From Akkermansiaceae bacterium (GTDB lineage Bacteria; Verrucomicrobiota; Verrucomicrobiia; Verrucomicrobiales; Akkermansiaceae): a stretch of 64,000 bases of DNA. Numbering within the stretch: position 1 is the stretch's first letter; the number at the start of each line of letters is the position of its first letter. A model generated the notes under the pieces. The model did no database searches and had not been told where the DNA came from. It worked only from the letters and a program-made list of their open reading frames with translations. The translations under genes and the position numbers were made by a program. The stretch is taken from positions 1 to 64,000 of the forward strand of contig CAJJBR010000013.1 in the NCBI GenBank assembly GCA_905182475.1, given 5' to 3'. Positions 66-10,600 of this stretch are shown piece by piece.

Positions 66-1133
66 ATGAAAATACTCTCCACCCTCCTCCTCACCTCCCT
101 CGCCATCCACGCCCAGCCAGTATTCATCGGCACCGGCGCAGACGGCATCTACCTTTCCAACTTCGACCCGGAAAAAGGGACCCTCACTGAGCCGACCCTC
201 GCCATCAAATTTCAAAGACCAGGCTTCCTAGCACTCCATCCCGAGAAACCAATCCTCTACTCCATCGGCGGCAACAACACCGTCGCTGGCTTCACCGTAG
301 CCGAGGACTACGCCCTCACCCTCCTCGGCACCGCACCCTGCGGTGGGAAAGGCCCATGCCACCTCGCAATCGACGCCTCCGGCCGCACCCTCACCGTAGC
401 GAATTACGGCGGTGGCTCCGTGGTATCCATCAGGCTGGGAGCCGACGGCAAACCCGGAAAAACCGCATCCGTCATCCAAATCGAAGGCTCCGGCCCCAAC
501 GAAAATCGCCAAAAATCGCCCCACACCCATGGCGTCTATTTCGATAATGCCAACCGCTTCCTCTTTGCCCCCGACCTTGGAGTCGACAAGACGCTCATCT
601 ACAAATTCGACCCAGCTACATCCGAACTCACCGCTAACGAGCCAGCACATTTCACAGCTCCTCCAGGCTCCGGCCCACGCCACATGGCCTTCTCCCCGAA
701 CGAAAAGCACGCTTACATCATCAACGAACTGACCAACACCATCAGTGCAGCCGCCTTCAACCAAGACACCGGAGCCCTAACCGAAGTCCAAACCATCTCC
801 ACTCTCCCCGGCGATTTCAAAGACGGCACAACCGCCGAGATCGAAGTCCATCCCAACGGCAACTTTGTCTACGGCTCAAACCGCGGGCACAACTCCATCG
901 TCGTTTACAAACGCGATCCGGAAACCGGCAAACTTACCTACGTCCAGCACGCTCCCTGCGGCGGTGAAATCCCCCGCCATTTTAAGATTGATCCCTCCGG
1001 CAAATGGCTCATTTGCGGCCACCAGAAATCCAACACGATTTCCGTCCTTAGCCTAGACCCGAAAACCGGCATGCTCGGCGAACCACAATCAACGGTCAAA
1101 GCCCCAAAACCCATCTGCATCCTGTTTCCGTAA
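66..1133 (+). CDS. Lactonase-family seven-bladed beta-propeller protein (Pgl/YbhE-like), exported
   Basis: The 355-residue product begins with a short signal peptide (MKILSTLLLTSLAIHAQP). It then reads as repeated propeller blades with motifs such as GxGPRHMAFSPN (near 200) and HPNGNFVYGSNRG (near 265), typical of the lactonase/6-phosphogluconolactonase family (PF10282). Cytosolic members hydrolyse 6-phosphogluconolactone, but the export signal makes a secreted sugar-lactonase or uncharacterised propeller role more likely. The first ATG gives a clean signal peptide, so this start is kept. It is convergent with the next gene. The fold is confident; the substrate is unknown. Confidence 0.8.
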   Translation: MKILSTLLLTSLAIHAQPVFIGTGADGIYLSNFDPEKGTLTEPTLAIKFQRPGFLALHPEKPILYSIGGNNTVAGFTVAEDYALTLLGTAPCGGKGPCHLAIDASGRTLTVANYGGGSVVSIRLGADGKPGKTASVIQIEGSGPNENRQKSPHTHGVYFDNANRFLFAPDLGVDKTLIYKFDPATSELTANEPAHFTAPPGSGPRHMAFSPNEKHAYIINELTNTISAAAFNQDTGALTEVQTISTLPGDFKDGTTAEIEVHPNGNFVYGSNRGHNSIVVYKRDPETGKLTYVQHAPCGGEIPRHFKIDPSGKWLICGHQKSNTISVLSLDPKTGMLGEPQSTVKAPKPICILFP

Positions 1134-1155
1134 CTGGGAGGGGCGTCGCGTTGAA

Positions 1156-2265
1156 CTAGATCCCCAACTCACGCACCAACCCCGTGCACCGCTCCCCCGG
1201 CATGACGCTTAGTTCCATCTGGTTCATGACGTAGGCGAAGGAAAAGCCGCCTGCGGGATCGCCGAAGGCGTGGCTGCCGCCTGCGCCGGGATGGCCGAAG
1301 GCCGCGGTAGATTCCCCGTAAAGCTGGCGTTTCTTAATGCCGCTTCCATCGACCGGATCTTTCTGGCACCCGCAGGTGAAGGCGGTTTCACGGAGTAGCA
1401 CCTTGTCCTCGCCGCTGCATTGCAGAGTTGCAAGGGCGGTTCGTGTCGCTTCTGAAAACGGACTATCGATCACGCCGATGGCGGCCTGGTAGAACTTCGC
1501 CAACCCGCTGGCACTGCCCACCCCACCCATTGCCGGAAGACCGGCCACCCATGCTTGGGGTGCGTTCATCTCCGCGATGGCATGCAGTCCTTTCGGTGAC
1601 GAAAACGCCCTGCGAGTGAGGCTGCCGGGTGTATTGAAAGATGCGTAAAAACCTTCCTCGAAAGCGGAGGGACTGGTGCGACCCGGAACGAGTTTCGCAA
1701 CCCGTTCCCATTCACTTTCCGGCAGCCCAATCCAAAGATTAATGCCCATGGGAGCGGCGATTTCCGCATTCCAGTATACGCCAAGGCTCCGGCCCTCTAG
1801 GCGACGGACACATTCGTCCATGAGAAAGCCAAGCGTGCGCGGATGATAGCCATGTCCCTGACCGGGAGTCCACTCGGGCTCTTTCCTCTCCACTACGGCG
1901 ATGACCGCCGCGTGATCGAACACGTCCGCGACCTCATCCAGCGCCGACAGTCCGCACTGGTGGGAAAGCATTTCGCCGAAGGTGGCACTATCCAGCGGGA
2001 AGCCGCTCCAGACTTCGCTGACGAGAGTATCGTGATCCAGGCCGCGCTGGCCGAGGACATGCAGCAGGGTCGCGGCAGCCGGTGCTTTCGTAGCCGAGTA
2101 AACGGGAGCCAAGGTATCCGAAGTCCATGAATTGGTTTTCCCTCGATCCGTGAAACCGCCGTGTAGAGAAACGATTTCCTCACCGCCTTTCCAAACACTA
2201 ACAGAAGCCCCCAGCTCCCCCCGTGCAGAAAAGTTCTCCCGAAAATATGCTTCAATCCCTTCCAT
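1156..2265 (-). CDS. Serine hydrolase, class C beta-lactamase/esterase (EstB-like) family
   Basis: This 369-residue product matches the beta-lactamase-related PF00144 family. The active-site SxxK is present as SATK near residue 58 and HPGAGGSHAFGDP near the C-terminus is the usual glycine-rich end motif. No signal peptide is seen, which favours a cytoplasmic esterase or peptidase over a resistance enzyme. A GTG lies 15 bases further upstream, but the ATG at 2265 has GGAG about 7 bases before it, so I prefer it. A heptamer repeat separates it from the upstream hemB. The substrate cannot be told from sequence. Confidence 0.82.
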   Translation of the reverse strand: MEGIEAYFRENFSARGELGASVSVWKGGEEIVSLHGGFTDRGKTNSWTSDTLAPVYSATKAPAAATLLHVLGQRGLDHDTLVSEVWSGFPLDSATFGEMLSHQCGLSALDEVADVFDHAAVIAVVERKEPEWTPGQGHGYHPRTLGFLMDECVRRLEGRSLGVYWNAEIAAPMGINLWIGLPESEWERVAKLVPGRTSPSAFEEGFYASFNTPGSLTRRAFSSPKGLHAIAEMNAPQAWVAGLPAMGGVGSASGLAKFYQAAIGVIDSPFSEATRTALATLQCSGEDKVLLRETAFTCGCQKDPVDGSGIKKRQLYGESTAAFGHPGAGGSHAFGDPAGGFSFAYVMNQMELSVMPGERCTGLVRELGI

Positions 2266-2276
2266 AACTCCGTCTT

Positions 2277-2297
2277 CCACTAGTCACTAGTCACTTC
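2277..2297. repeat. Heptamer tandem repeat, YCACTNN type
   Basis: Three units (ccactag, tcactag, tcacttc) fill the gap between hemB and the serine hydrolase. The last unit supplies the hemB stop codon. Confidence 0.65.
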
Positions 2298-3277
2298 AAC
2301 CACCCCGCCACATCCTTAGCAAAGTAAGTCAGAATCATATCCGCCCCAGCCCGCTTGATACCCAGCAGGCTCTCCATCACCACCGCCTTTTCATCCAGCC
2401 ATCCACCGCCACAAGCAGACTTGATCATCAAATATTCCCCGCTCACCTGATAGGCAGCGATTGGCAGGGTCGTCTCATCGCGCAGCCGTGCGATGACATC
2501 AAGGTAGGGTCCAGCAGGTTTCACCATCACGATATCCGCACCCTCTTCCTCATCCATGAGAAGCTCGCGAACCGCTTCCCGCACATTACCGGGATCCATC
2601 TGGTAGGTCTTCTTGTCCCCTTCCTTCGGAGCGGAATCAAGAGCTCCTCGGAACGGCCCGTAAAAGGCGGAAGCATACTTCGCAGTGTAGGCCATAATCC
2701 CAGTTTCCTCGAAACCCGCTTCATCCAGCGCTACCCGGATCGCCCCAATCCTACCGTCCATCATGTCAGACGGAGCCACGATATCCGCTCCAGCACGTGC
2801 GTGGCAGAGCGCTTGTTCGCATAAAACCTCCACGGTTTCATCATTCAAAATTTTCAGCGAGCCATCCTCGCCCCGTTCCACAATCCCATCGTGCCCATCC
2901 GAGCTATACGGATCGAGCGCAACATCCGTGATTACACACATCCCCGGACAAGCTTTCTTAATCGCACGGATCACCTGAGGCACCAGCCCTTCATCGTCCG
3001 CACACGCAGCACCATTCGCGCTCTTCAGCTCCTCCGCGATCTTCGGAAAAAGCACCACCGCACGTATCCCCATTTTCCAGACCGACTCCACCTCAGCGAT
3101 CAACCCACTGACCGTCCAACGTGTGCATCCCGGCATAGATTCGATGGCCACATCCTCCGCATCCTCATGGAAAAAAACAGGCAGAATCAGGTCATCCACA
3201 GAGATTCCCGTCTCCCGCACTAACCCACGTATCGCAGGAGTCCTCCTATTCCGTCTCGCCCGAATCATCATTTCCAT
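2291..3277 (-). CDS. hemB: Delta-aminolevulinic acid dehydratase (porphobilinogen synthase)
   Basis: HemB condenses two 5-aminolevulinate molecules to porphobilinogen in tetrapyrrole synthesis. The 328-residue length and sequence are typical: an N-terminal RxRRxRRTPAIRGLVRETG segment, DVALDPYSSDGHDG near 140 and MVKPAGPYLDVI near 250 with the Schiff-base lysine. The active-site metal region lacks the full cysteine triad of zinc enzymes (DVALDPYSSDGHDG has no cysteine), which suggests a magnesium-type enzyme. The start has two close ATGs; the first is kept. It lies downstream of moaE on the same strand, across a 165-base gap filled with short tandem repeats. Confidence 0.95.
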   Translation of the reverse strand: MEMMIRARRNRRTPAIRGLVRETGISVDDLILPVFFHEDAEDVAIESMPGCTRWTVSGLIAEVESVWKMGIRAVVLFPKIAEELKSANGAACADDEGLVPQVIRAIKKACPGMCVITDVALDPYSSDGHDGIVERGEDGSLKILNDETVEVLCEQALCHARAGADIVAPSDMMDGRIGAIRVALDEAGFEETGIMAYTAKYASAFYGPFRGALDSAPKEGDKKTYQMDPGNVREAVRELLMDEEEGADIVMVKPAGPYLDVIARLRDETTLPIAAYQVSGEYLMIKSACGGGWLDEKAVVMESLLGIKRAGADMILTYFAKDVAGWLK

Positions 3278-3311
3278 ACGGCGAAGCTACATGCTCACCG
3301 CGAAAACAAAA

Positions 3312-3379
3312 TCAGAAATCAGAAATCGGAACCCAAGTCACAAGAATCTGATCCGCGCCAATCCGCGTTCATCCGTGGT
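3312..3379. repeat. Two short tandem repeats: 7-bp tcagaaa units and 10-bp atccgcg units
   Basis: Upstream of hemB, bases 3312-3332 hold three 7-base units (tcagaaa, tcagaaa, tcggaac). Bases 3350-3379 hold three 10-base units (gatccgcgcc, aatccgcgtt, catccgtggt). Both are degenerate tandem arrays in non-coding sequence. Confidence 0.6.
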
Positions 3380-3405
3380 TACTCTTCAAACCCTGCCCCA
3401 GCCTT

Positions 3406-3433
3406 CCACTGATCACTCGGCACTAGCAACTTC
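3406..3433. repeat. Heptamer tandem repeat, YCACTNN type
   Basis: Units ccactga, tcactcg, gcactag and a degenerate fourth lie just behind the moaE stop codon, in the moaE-hemB gap. Confidence 0.65.
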
Positions 3434-3442
3434 ACTCCCAAT

Positions 3443-6424: not shown

Positions 6425-6871
6425 ATGCCAGAATTCTCCCACCTAGACTCCGAAGGCACCGCCCGCATGGTCGATGTCGGCCACAAGCCCATCCAACTCC
6501 GCACCGCCACCGCCGCCGGCCAGGTCACCTGCCGAGCGGAAACCATCGCAGCACTCCGCGACAAAGCCCTCCCCAAAGGCGACGTCCTCACCGTCGCCCG
6601 CATCGCCGCCATCCAGGCAGCCAAGATCACCGACAAGCTCATCCCACTCTGCCACTCTCTCCCCCTCGATTCCGTTGACGTAGATTTCGAGATCCAGGAA
6701 ACCGAAATCCACATCCGCGCTACCGCCCGTACCTCCGCGAAAACAGGCGTGGAAATGGAAGCCCTCACCGCAGTCTCCATCGCCGCCCTCACCATCTACG
6801 ACATGTGCAAAGCCGTGGACAAAACCATGTCCATAGGCGGCATCACCGTAACAGAAAAAACCAAGCAATGA
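6425..6871 (+). CDS. moaC: Cyclic pyranopterin monophosphate synthase
   Basis: MoaC forms cyclic pyranopterin monophosphate (precursor Z) after the MoaA radical step. The 148-residue length and motifs are standard: [16 protein letters not shown] at the start, [16 protein letters not shown] near 70 and [19 protein letters not shown] near 105, then CKAVDK. The ATG at 6425 is chosen because family members begin with this segment; the upstream open frame overlaps moeA and is not conserved-looking. It overlaps the next gene by ATGA. No moaA lies in the window. Confidence 0.94.
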
Positions 6872-7335
6872 AAATCGCCCGCCTCACCCTCAGCGACCGC
6901 GCCAGCGCAGGGATCTACAAAGATCTCTCCGGCCCCGAAATCGAACGTATCCTCACCGAAAACGGCTTCACCGAAGTCGAGTGGATCCGCCACGTCATGC
7001 CCGACGATCGCGATAGCATCGAAACTCTCCTCCGCACCCTCAGCGATCAGGAAAACTGCCAACTCATCCTCACCACCGGCGGCACCGGACCTTCCGCCCG
7101 CGACAACACCCCCGAAGCCACCCGCGCCGTCCTCGAACGAGAACTCCCCGGCTTCGGCGAAGCCATGCGAATGCGCAGTTTCGAAAAAGTCCCAACCGCC
7201 ATCCTCTCTCGCTCCACCGCCGGAACCCGCGGAAAATCCCTCATCCTAAACCTCCCCGGAAACCCCAAAGCCATCGAAGAATGCCTCCCTATGCTGATCC
7301 CGGCTGTAAAAGAGGCGATGCGTCACCTTGAGTAG
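6868..7335 (+). CDS. mog: Molybdopterin adenylyltransferase (MogA/MoaB family)
   Basis: The 155-residue product activates molybdopterin by adenylation before MoeA inserts molybdenum. It begins [15 protein letters not shown], has the [18 protein letters not shown] motif near 70 and ends with [14 protein letters not shown], all family signatures. Its ATG overlaps the moaC stop, so translation is probably coupled. A large palindromic element follows immediately after its stop. Whether it is closer to MogA or MoaB cannot be decided by eye. Confidence 0.9.
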
Positions 7336-7339
7336 CAGT

Positions 7340-7437
7340 CGTGTCTCACGGCTTGAGTCAAAGCGGTGTCCCACCGCCCGTGCAAAGGTCTTCCGCAAAT
7401 GGTGAGACACCATTTAAAACTCAAGGCGTGAGACACG
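7340..7437. repeat. REPIN-like inverted pair of hairpins between convergent genes
   Basis: Bases 7340-7358 and 7419-7437 are 19-base inverted arms matching at 18 positions. Inside lie two further hairpins, gcggtg-tcc-caccgc (7363-7377) and an 8-bp stem with loop aga (7397-7415). Each arm is itself palindromic. All four hairpins share the core GTG-TCY/AGA-CAC with different, internally matched outer stems. It begins 5 bases after the mog stop and ends 2 bases before the end of the tricorn-like gene, so it may also act as a two-way terminator. Confidence 0.8.
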
Positions 7438-7438
7438 C

Positions 7439-10400
7439 CTACTCCTTATACTTGGCCTTCACCCGCCGTTCCCCGTCTCCAACCTCTTGCTCCAGCACCT
7501 TCACAGCCGCCTCCAGCTGCGGATCACTTCCTTTCGCCTGATCCTCCGGCAAGAACGGCACTACCACATCCGGCACCGCGCCGTTCAGCTCGAGATCTTG
7601 CCCGGTTTCCGCGTGAAACCAGCCCCGGAACGGAATTTGCAACTCCCCCACCTCCGGGATGCGGACCCCCACCGCCGAGATCACACCGCCGTTGGTCGGC
7701 ATCCCGACGAGTTTCCCCCGTCCGAGTCGCTTGAAGGCGTGGCAGAAAATCTCCGCGTTTGAAAAGGTGTTTCCGTTGCACAACACTACCATGGGTCCTT
7801 CCCAGGAAGGGCTAACTCGCCGGTCTGTCGGGTAGCCCCTCGGGCCGTCCCTTGGGATGGTAAAGGTATGCTCCGGCTGGCAGAAAAGCCCTAGAAGTCC
7901 GTCCGCCACGCGCCCACCCAGATTGTCACGCATATCTAGGATCAGCCCATCCGAATCCAATGAGGCACGGTAGATCTCTACCGCCAAATCCCGTAAATCA
8001 TCCGTCTTCATTTTCCGGAACGGCAGATAGGTAAAATCCTTTTCCTCCGCCATCCGCGCCGCAGCAGCCGCTTTCGCCTCCCGGTCAATCAGGCGGACCT
8101 CATCATAGTCCACGGACATCAGCTCCATCGTCCGCTTCTTCCCATCCGCACCGGCAACCACCATAGGCAGCGAATTCCCCTCCGCACCGCTGAAAAACCG
8201 CCCCAGATCCGTCTTCGCATCCACTTCCTTCCCGCCGATCCGGAGCACTGTGTCACCAGCCACAGGCGCGCCTTTCACCCGAGACACCGGAGTGCCGGCA
8301 ATCACCCGCTCCACTACCAGCGGCCCGTCCCAACTCGCCTTAAAAACCATGCCCGGATGCGCCATCGGCTTCTTCACCTTCGTCTTGTCACCTTTCAGCC
8401 CCCACGCTTTCGATTTAAAAGTAAGATGCGAGGCATTCAGCTCTCCCAACAACTGCGCCACCACCCGGTCGAACTGCCGCGATTCCTTGGCCCTTGCTGC
8501 GGCATCCTCGTATTTCACCAGTACGGCATCCCAGTCAGTACCGTTCATCGTCTTGTCATAGAAACGCTCTCCCAGAGCCCTCCAGATCCTGCGGAAGCCC
8601 AGTCGCAGCCGCGCGCTCCTGTCCTGCTCCACGGAAAACGAAAACTTAAAACCATCCATCACGCCGCCGTGGAACACCATCGGTTCCCGATCCACGCGCC
8701 AAAACGATAGACCAACACCATCCACTCCCACCGGTATCCCTCGGAAGTCCGCCCACTCATCTACCTCACCGGTTTCCACGGAAAGTGAAGACACCGACAT
8801 GTCCTTCGCATCCCGGCTCTGGAATAGTACCGACTGAGAATCCGCCGCCCACACAAGCCGAATAGGTTCGCTTACATCCGTATCCATGGGCTTGGCCGAT
8901 GCGGCGATCTTCGTGAAATCCTTTTTCCCCAGCCCCTCCACATCAACCGTCCACAGTCGCGCAATCTCATCCTCATCCCTCCGCGCCACGAAGACGATGG
9001 TCTTTCCATCCGGCGACCATTTCGGTGATCCCTCGAAGGCCGGATGGCGCGTCAAATTCACCGCCTTTTCCGAGCCATCCGCCCGCACCACCCAGATATC
9101 GCGGTTCGCGTGTAGATCCTTTTTTCCAATCACCAGCCACTCCCCGTCCGGCGACCAGTCATAGGTCGGCGGATCCCATCCGTGCGTAACCACCTTGGCC
9201 TCGCCCTCGCCAAATGCAGGGGCAATCACGATATCCCCCGTCGCTTCAATCCACGAGAGGCGACCACCGTCCGGACTCACCCGCAACGAGCGCTTCGATC
9301 TCTTTCCCGCCGGGATGATTGATACCTCCCCCAATTTCCCATCGGAAAATTCCGCGCGGCAAACCTCCATCTCAAGCCCATCATCCTTCAGAAAAAACAC
9401 CGCCTCGCCATACTGAGAAAACTGCGGCTCCTGCTCGTCCAAGGCATCCGTCTCAGTCAGCCGCACCGGCTCCTCACCCCGTATCATCGTCCACAAATCC
9501 CCCGCCGCCGAAAATACAATCCTCTCACCTTTCCCGAACGTCACCGACGAAGTCCCGGAGACCTTTTCCCGCCTAACCAGCTTCTTGGAAAATTCTTCCC
9601 CCTCTGCAAAAAACTTCACCTCCAACGGCTGCCTACCAGTGCCCGGCTCGAACCGATACACCTTCTGCCCCGCCCGGAAAATCATTACCTTCCCATCCCC
9701 CGAAAGCGTCGGCCCCACCACCGATTCACCCTTAAAAAAAGTCTCTTGCTTGTCAGAACCCGTCTCCAAATCCCGCGACCACAAGTTAAAAGCCCCGTCC
9801 ACGTTCGAGAGATAATAGAAGCCCTTCCCATCCGGTTTCCATAGCGGTGATTTCGCCTCCCACTTCTCGAGGATCAGGGGCGTAAACTCCCGCGTTACAG
9901 CATCATAGAGATGAACTTGCGAAGCCCGCGATCCACGATACCCGCTGCGGTAAAGCGGCTCCCCACCTTGGCAAAAAAGATACCGCTTCCCTTCCGGCGA
10001 AACCGAAATCGAATGAGCCGTCGCATCAAACAATTCCAGCTCGCGGCTATCATCTGATAGATCCACCAGCAGTGGACGATACGGCTTATAGCCAGAGTTT
10101 CCACGCAGTCCTTTTGCAACAGCCACCCTACCATCCGACGAAATGGATTCCAACACGTAGCCTTCGGAATGATTGCTGTGCAGTTGCAGATCACTCCCGT
10201 CCACCTTCACCGAATAGATCTGTGCAGATCCTGTCCGCTCAGAACAAAACACCAGCCGCGTTCCCTCCGACGCGAACTTAGGATAAGCTTCACGGGCAGA
10301 GTGTTTCACGATCCTTTGAGCCTTCCCGCCCTCAGCAGGAGCAGTCCAGATATCATTCAGCCACTCGAATGCTAGCAACTTCCCATCATGGGAAAGCGCA

Positions 10401-10498
10401 GACCAGGCCAAGCCTCTGATTTCTTGCGTTTCCTCTCCTTTCGCGGCCAGCCCATGGACAGAGGAGAACAGGAGAATAGCTGAAAGAAGAATCCGCAT
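7439..10498 (-). CDS. Tricorn-like S41 family peptidase with N-terminal beta-propeller, exported
   Basis: The 1019-residue protein has a signal peptide (MRILLSAILLFSSVHGLAA), about 600 residues of WD40/TolB-type propeller repeats (SPDGEWLVIG, WSPDGKTIVFVARRDED), a PDZ segment near 740-800 (GDTVLRIGGKEV) and a C-terminal S41 protease domain. The latter has LILDMRDNLGGR near 845 and the likely nucleophile serine in GNTFSNAE near 911. This is the tricorn protease architecture, here probably periplasmic and degrading peptides. The ATG at 10498 is preferred over a TTG two codons upstream. It is convergent with mog and divergent from alr. Confidence 0.88.
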   Translation of the reverse strand: MRILLSAILLFSSVHGLAAKGEETQEIRGLAWSALSHDGKLLAFEWLNDIWTAPAEGGKAQRIVKHSAREAYPKFASEGTRLVFCSERTGSAQIYSVKVDGSDLQLHSNHSEGYVLESISSDGRVAVAKGLRGNSGYKPYRPLLVDLSDDSRELELFDATAHSISVSPEGKRYLFCQGGEPLYRSGYRGSRASQVHLYDAVTREFTPLILEKWEAKSPLWKPDGKGFYYLSNVDGAFNLWSRDLETGSDKQETFFKGESVVGPTLSGDGKVMIFRAGQKVYRFEPGTGRQPLEVKFFAEGEEFSKKLVRREKVSGTSSVTFGKGERIVFSAAGDLWTMIRGEEPVRLTETDALDEQEPQFSQYGEAVFFLKDDGLEMEVCRAEFSDGKLGEVSIIPAGKRSKRSLRVSPDGGRLSWIEATGDIVIAPAFGEGEAKVVTHGWDPPTYDWSPDGEWLVIGKKDLHANRDIWVVRADGSEKAVNLTRHPAFEGSPKWSPDGKTIVFVARRDEDEIARLWTVDVEGLGKKDFTKIAASAKPMDTDVSEPIRLVWAADSQSVLFQSRDAKDMSVSSLSVETGEVDEWADFRGIPVGVDGVGLSFWRVDREPMVFHGGVMDGFKFSFSVEQDRSARLRLGFRRIWRALGERFYDKTMNGTDWDAVLVKYEDAAARAKESRQFDRVVAQLLGELNASHLTFKSKAWGLKGDKTKVKKPMAHPGMVFKASWDGPLVVERVIAGTPVSRVKGAPVAGDTVLRIGGKEVDAKTDLGRFFSGAEGNSLPMVVAGADGKKRTMELMSVDYDEVRLIDREAKAAAAARMAEEKDFTYLPFRKMKTDDLRDLAVEIYRASLDSDGLILDMRDNLGGRVADGLLGLFCQPEHTFTIPRDGPRGYPTDRRVSPSWEGPMVVLCNGNTFSNAEIFCHAFKRLGRGKLVGMPTNGGVISAVGVRIPEVGELQIPFRGWFHAETGQDLELNGAVPDVVVPFLPEDQAKGSDPQLEAAVKVLEQEVGDGERRVKAKYKE

Positions 10499-10600
10499 AT
10501 CCAAGGCAACTCCTCACAACAGGCGCAAGCAAGAATGATCTCGTCTGATTTTCCCTACACTCCGCCTTGCGCAGTTGATCCGCTCCATTAGCCTGAAGCC

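Follow-up and report, generated by a model that had tools for sequence, protein, structure and literature searches.

A REPIN-like family in Akkermansiaceae

The window analysed here, a stretch of 64,000 nucleotides from the genome of an Akkermansiaceae bacterium, contains between two convergent genes a palindromic element of 116 bases (7331–7446) that is very probably a REPIN, i.e., a non-autonomous element composed of two inverted REP halves, each of which opens with a G(G/T)AG tag and continues with two hairpins. The family is new, the kind of element is known. We call the feature a REPIN because, in the same-genus genome G052, a gene resembling those for RAYTs (REP-associated Y1 HUH transposases) is flanked immediately, on either side, by an inverted pair of the same family, hereafter family I (L178: gene at 1685–2299, pairs at 1479–1601 and 2313–2435). 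A REPIN family with independent copies across a genus and a matching RAYT-like gene is thereby placed in the Akkermansiaceae.

Structure of the element and its place between two stop codons

The element consists of two inverted halves of about 53 nt, each comprising, in order, a G(T/G)AG tag, hairpin 1, a linker and hairpin 2. The 5′ half (7331–7382, plus strand) carries the tag GTAG at 7332–7335, hairpin 1 at 7340–7350 (CGTG-TCT-CACG) and hairpin 2 at 7363–7377 (GCGGTG-TCC-CACCGC). The 3′ half (7393–7446, minus strand) carries the tag GGAG at 7442–7445, hairpin 1 at 7425–7439 (GGCGTG-TCT-CACGCC on the minus strand, GGCGTG-AGA-CACGCC on the plus strand) and hairpin 2 at 7397–7415 (AAATGGTG-TCT-CACCATTT on the minus strand, AAATGGTG-AGA-CACCATTT on the plus strand). 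The two halves score 70.2 and 69.6 bits, respectively, with the covariance model R1, although both belong to its training set, whose copies score well by construction. An earlier note on this DNA had delimited the element as 7340–7437; the tags and the outermost bases belong to it as well. The same note had ascribed a common GTG-TCT-CAC core to four hairpins with differing, self-paired outer stems. All four are present between 7340 and 7439, hairpins 3 and 4 being of the same kind as 1 and 2 read on the opposite strand, and every stem is perfectly paired; the core, however, is GTG-TC(T/C)-CAC, with TCC in one loop. The pairing of the outermost parts with each other, previously put at 19 bases, amounts to 11 + 7 bp with one mismatch. 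The minimum free energy of the element is −60 kcal/mol, compared with −29.9 ± 3.4 kcal/mol for 200 shuffled sequences, none of which folds as well (z −8.98), and all 3 occurrences of GTGTCTCAC in the window, against 0.34 expected, fall within the element.

Upstream lies a convergent MoCF_biosynth (MoaB-like) gene (6805–7335, plus strand; Pfam PF00994, E 8.7e-28), the true start of which may be at 6868, and downstream a convergent gene for a tricorn-like S41 peptidase (7439–10504, minus strand; Pfam PF03572, PF14684 and PF07676), the closest named relatives of which come from MAGs of Akkermansiaceae and other Verrucomicrobiales. Both genes end in TAG, and both stop codons overlap the ends of the element: that of the moaB-like gene (7333–7335) is inside the 5′ tag GTAG, and that of the peptidase gene (complement of 7439–7441) sits between hairpin 4 and the 3′ tag, which it adjoins. 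The convergent stops had been placed within 5 bases of the element and are thus even closer.

Dispersed copies in the genome and the genus

The genome from which the window comes is a MAG of 3.38 Mb in 144 contigs, about 90% complete. Searching this assembly at the DNA level recovered one more complete copy, 82% identical, along with others, complete or partial, of 69–84% identity. The bare GTGTCTCAC is too short for a genome-wide count, yielding 16 matches against 8 in a reversed control, so that a structure model was needed. With R1, which was built from 11 halves and describes two hairpins, we found about 15 halves dispersed over 11 sites. The strong ones form four clear inverted pairs, on contigs C13 (the window), C16, C56 and C85, and the solo or decayed ones are on C109, C72, C101, C88, C82, C58 and C93. 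Independently of the training set of R1, inverted pairs of the same length occur in four genomes of the same genus (G004, G052, G068 and G086), including four pairs as long as the window unit in G004, which is a single contig. The unit is therefore multi-copy in its own genome and in the genus, and RAYT/Y1 genes are present (see below), so that both parts of the refutation proposed in the earlier note, a single occurrence and the absence of any RAYT gene, fail.

Some of the copies resemble each other beyond the element. The right outer flanks on C56 and C85 are alike (ATATTTCATG), and two of the G004 copies (L108 and L113) have ATTTCATGA in common before the tag, so that duplication of longer stretches, or a common target, may account for some copies. 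The genome also harbors a sister family (family II) with the tag GTAG, a first hairpin CTGCCGC-GTCTC-GCGGCAG and an equal two-hairpin layout, copies of which are located at C56:93824, C136:10222, C33:65198, C22:6378, C26:4654, C84:442, C15:8638, C46:2683 and C80:39175 (L064–L078).

A strong hairpin between convergent genes, with the stops of both inside it, could also be a two-way intrinsic terminator unrelated to transposition, and one terminator-like site is indeed present on the minus strand. That site, however, is weak and near chance (0.4 expected), the plus strand has no U-tract, and a terminator would not explain why homologous copies, some paired in inverted orientation and others solo, are scattered over unrelated loci, nor why a relative has them on both sides of a RAYT-like gene. 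We therefore consider this explanation improbable; intrinsic termination is at most a weakly supported side role, confined to one strand with a weak U-tract.

The candidate transposase

The RAYT-like frame of G052 encodes 204 aa with the motifs LPHW and MPNHLH. It matches the NCBIfam model REP_Tyr_transpos with an E value of 1.7e-15, though at 57 bits it stays under the curated cut-off of 80; a Pfam search returned no match at E 0.001. Relatives of this RAYT, 58–64% identical, are encoded in five other genomes, where the flanking inverted repeats are of other sequence; relatedness among RAYTs alone is thus no predictor of the REP class, which fits the published association of each tnpAREP with its own REP class (PMC6006769). 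The search for a RAYT (Y1 transposase) gene called for in the earlier note yielded, besides the G052 gene, seven Y1_Tnp matches in the genome of the window. None of the seven is flanked by family I in this MAG, about 90% complete, and a RAYT flanked by family I was likewise not found in G004. The window family may be an orphan population, or its cognate RAYT may be encoded in the roughly 10% of the genome that the assembly lacks.

Two RAYT sequences in the MAG were weighed as cognates and rejected. The RAYT on C31 (L039:1500–2280) is 35% identical and adjoined by another REP class; that on C120 is an N-terminal fragment of 41 residues beside yet another. The C31 gene lies directly downstream of gyrA, flanked by REPINs of the class GGAACGCGGACT...AGTCCGC, of which the upstream pair extends into the 3′ end of the gyrA coding sequence. 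The matches on C14, C15 and C124 (L028–L031) are copies of an IS200-like TnpA, two of them, on C124, scoring equally, and form a mobile population apart from the RAYTs.

Short, inverted and dispersed elements could also be MITEs, descended from an ordinary insertion sequence of the DDE type bounded by terminal inverted repeats. Yet each half is itself a pair of hairpins with a tag, the only gene that we found enclosed by such ends is a RAYT-like Y1 frame rather than a DDE transposase, and unsystematic inspection of the flanks showed no direct repeats, so that a MITE is very unlikely.

The REPIN reading draws support from the strong fold, recurrence in the genome and the genus, the presence of RAYT/Y1 genes, the arrangement in G052, and the covariation and the presence/absence difference at C16, both described below, as well as from the tag position and the location at gene 3′ ends, which match published GTAG REPs (PMC3733652). 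Against it stand the low copy number, about 15 halves compared with 91–323 REPINs in a well-studied system (PMC8049555), the mostly GGAG tag, the sub-threshold profile match of the G052 RAYT without a Pfam hit, and the failure to find a RAYT flanked by family I in the MAG and in G004. By analogy with the E. coli and Stenotrophomonas systems, on which the recognition and cleavage of tag and hairpin are based (PMC8266576), a RAYT would recognize the tag and hairpin on single-stranded DNA, cleave there, and then copy or move the REP doublet in trans via single-stranded intermediates. What we see is structure, dispersal, covariation, presence and absence of copies and association with a RAYT in one relative; movement of the REPIN by a RAYT is, most likely, what produced this pattern.

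Covariation and the tag

An alignment of 45 halves of family I shows the core G-TCT-C in hairpin 1, the same core within a variable stem in hairpin 2, and a linker that is often TTGAGTTCA. Standard pairs fill 90% of the paired cells. Cells in which both partners have changed number 112, compared with 43.6 ± 7.3 in the shuffled control and no more than 22 in the control with slid partners, and the covariation score is 0.516, compared with 0.194 and at most 0.112, respectively. Covariation thus exceeds both controls, indicating that pairing is kept while the sequence changes and bearing out, with 112 double changes where about 44 are expected, the compensated pairing that the first reading of the window had proposed. 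RNA function would produce equally strong covariation, but a structured non-coding RNA kept for its own sake is the least probable explanation of all, given that copies lie beside unrelated genes, halves also occur alone, and Rfam at a permissive threshold returns only models of miRNA precursors, of the sort that any long hairpin attracts, with scores that fall far short of the gathering thresholds.

The tetranucleotide G(G/T)AG stands directly 5′ of the hairpin in all 45 aligned halves, as GGAG in 42 and as GTAG in 3, the 5′ half in the window being among the latter. Family I is thus a GGAG-tagged REP and not a canonical GTAG REP.

Among known systems, the REPINs of Pseudomonas fluorescens SBW25 are alike in being inverted REP doublets of about 100 bp that form a long hairpin, in their compensatory changes, in leaving solo REPs as remnants and in the pairing of each cognate RAYT with its own REPIN class (Bertels and Rainey 2011, PMC3116915). 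By contrast, the family described here has two hairpins per half, a mostly GGAG tag, few copies and a cognate RAYT found only in a relative. The GTAG REPs, including those of Opitutus terrae (Verrucomicrobia), have a 5′ tetranucleotide tag before the hairpin, sit at the 3′ ends of convergent genes, where the tag often supplies a TAG stop, and also occur inside coding genes (Di Nocera 2013, PMC3733652). Apart from the GGAG tag, family I departs from them in a preference for T(A/G)(A/T) directly before the tag, which we have not seen described there.

Empty sites and a possible target preference

The C16 site differs between relatives: the genome of the window has the element there, whereas G004 and G052 lack it but keep the neighbors, an amidase-like and a glnB-like gene (both named by sequence reading). 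At the locus of the copy in the window, the element is absent beside relatives of the peptidase gene (L042, 75%) and of the moaB-like gene (L272, 90%); the neighbors differ, so that this absence is weaker evidence than that at C16.

The triplet directly before the tag is TAA, TGA or TAG at 16 of the 45 ends, compared with 4.6% when every GGAG in these loci is considered (binomial 7e-11, a guide only because the rows are related), whereas neighboring offsets have stop triplets at 0–3 of the 45 ends. Position −3 is T at 24 of these ends, and position −2 is A or G at 35. Given that only some of the triplets are the stops of long frames, the pattern suggests that the elements prefer target sites of the form T(A/G)(A/T)|GGAG, which would often fall on a stop codon by virtue of its letters; in particular, T(A/G)A|GGAG would give a concrete explanation for the position of such copies on stop codons. 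Because TAAGGAG resembles a Shine-Dalgarno sequence, the actual target could instead be that. The element in the window would have arrived in the convergent-gene junction at a site of the T(A/G)(A/T)|G(G/T)AG type, with its ends now part of both TAG stops, and would have become fixed there, where it presumably does little harm.

RAYTs in frame inside host genes

Relatives within the genus show a further arrangement. In G015, inverted REPs of the sister family (L117:1820–1868 and 2526–2578) flank a RAYT that lies in frame inside ispG (ORF 935–3439); the frame matches GcpE/IspG on both sides, and its central part matches REP_Tyr_transpos with a score exceeding the curated cut-off (Pfam, NCBIfam). 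Among the fetched loci, 30 long frames carry such a RAYT guest, one of them carrying two. The hosts are large genes, for the most part essential; by genomes, they are ispG in nine, several bounded by inverted family-II REPs (L117:1820–2578 in G015, L208, L209, L218, L223, L226, L231, L235 and L236), metH in eight (L210, L211, L216, L221, L228, L229, L234 and L237), alaS in five (L222, L224, L227, L233 and L235), leuS in three (L214, L217 and L230), carB in two (L219 and L232), hsdR in two (L215 and L220), and one further large, methyltransferase-like gene (L213). Profile searches confirmed IspG, LeuRS and MetH, in a single example of each, and the other hosts are named by sequence reading.

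The metH guest in G004, a single contig, speaks against an assembly artefact. A search of six guest-bearing genomes (G015, G013, G052, G005, G058 and G017) showed no second ispG; ispG is free of a guest in the genome of the window, G068 and G004. In a tree, the guest RAYTs group largely by host gene, with two changes needed for ispG and three for leuS. Pairwise dN/dS among guests is mostly 0.1–0.4, rising to 0.54 in a few pairs; values for saturated pairs are unreliable, and those for alaS are mixed because the fixed slice of 210 residues includes host residues. Given these low values, selection appears to act on the guest. The HUH motif was a search criterion, so that its conservation is no evidence. 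We found no description of in-frame RAYT guests in the openly searchable literature, and their novelty is accordingly provisional; one survey set aside long TnpA-Y1 proteins as fusions or annotation errors (PMC6006769).

Taken together, it is about an even call whether the RAYT–REP system of this genus resides partly inside essential genes, with whole RAYT frames, several bounded by their own inverted REPs, as in-frame guests of IspG, MetH, AlaRS, LeuRS and CarB, under purifying selection and inherited at fixed sites. The REPIN in the window would then be a non-autonomous satellite of a system of the same kind, and its target preference would tend to place it on stop codons. RAYTs have been described as single-copy, vertically inherited and domesticated genes of unknown benefit (PMC8049555). 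If RAYTs do recur in frame in essential enzymes, with REPs at their borders and low dN/dS, the question of why bacteria keep them would become testable.

The Rickettsia palindromic elements (RPE), discussed in PMC3733652, are palindromic repeats tolerated in frame within coding genes. The ispG and alaS insertions in the relatives resemble RPE in that palindromic repeats lie in frame inside coding genes, but here the host gene also contains, in frame, the gene for the transposase, together with its REPs. Two of the ispG loci deserve separate mention. That of G061 (L209) is a single frame of 1125 aa with two RAYT domains that take differing positions in the tree. The ispG of the genome from which the window comes (C10:21545–23341, L288/L292) has no RAYT; at the insertion site it carries an apparent REP scar, in frame and decayed.
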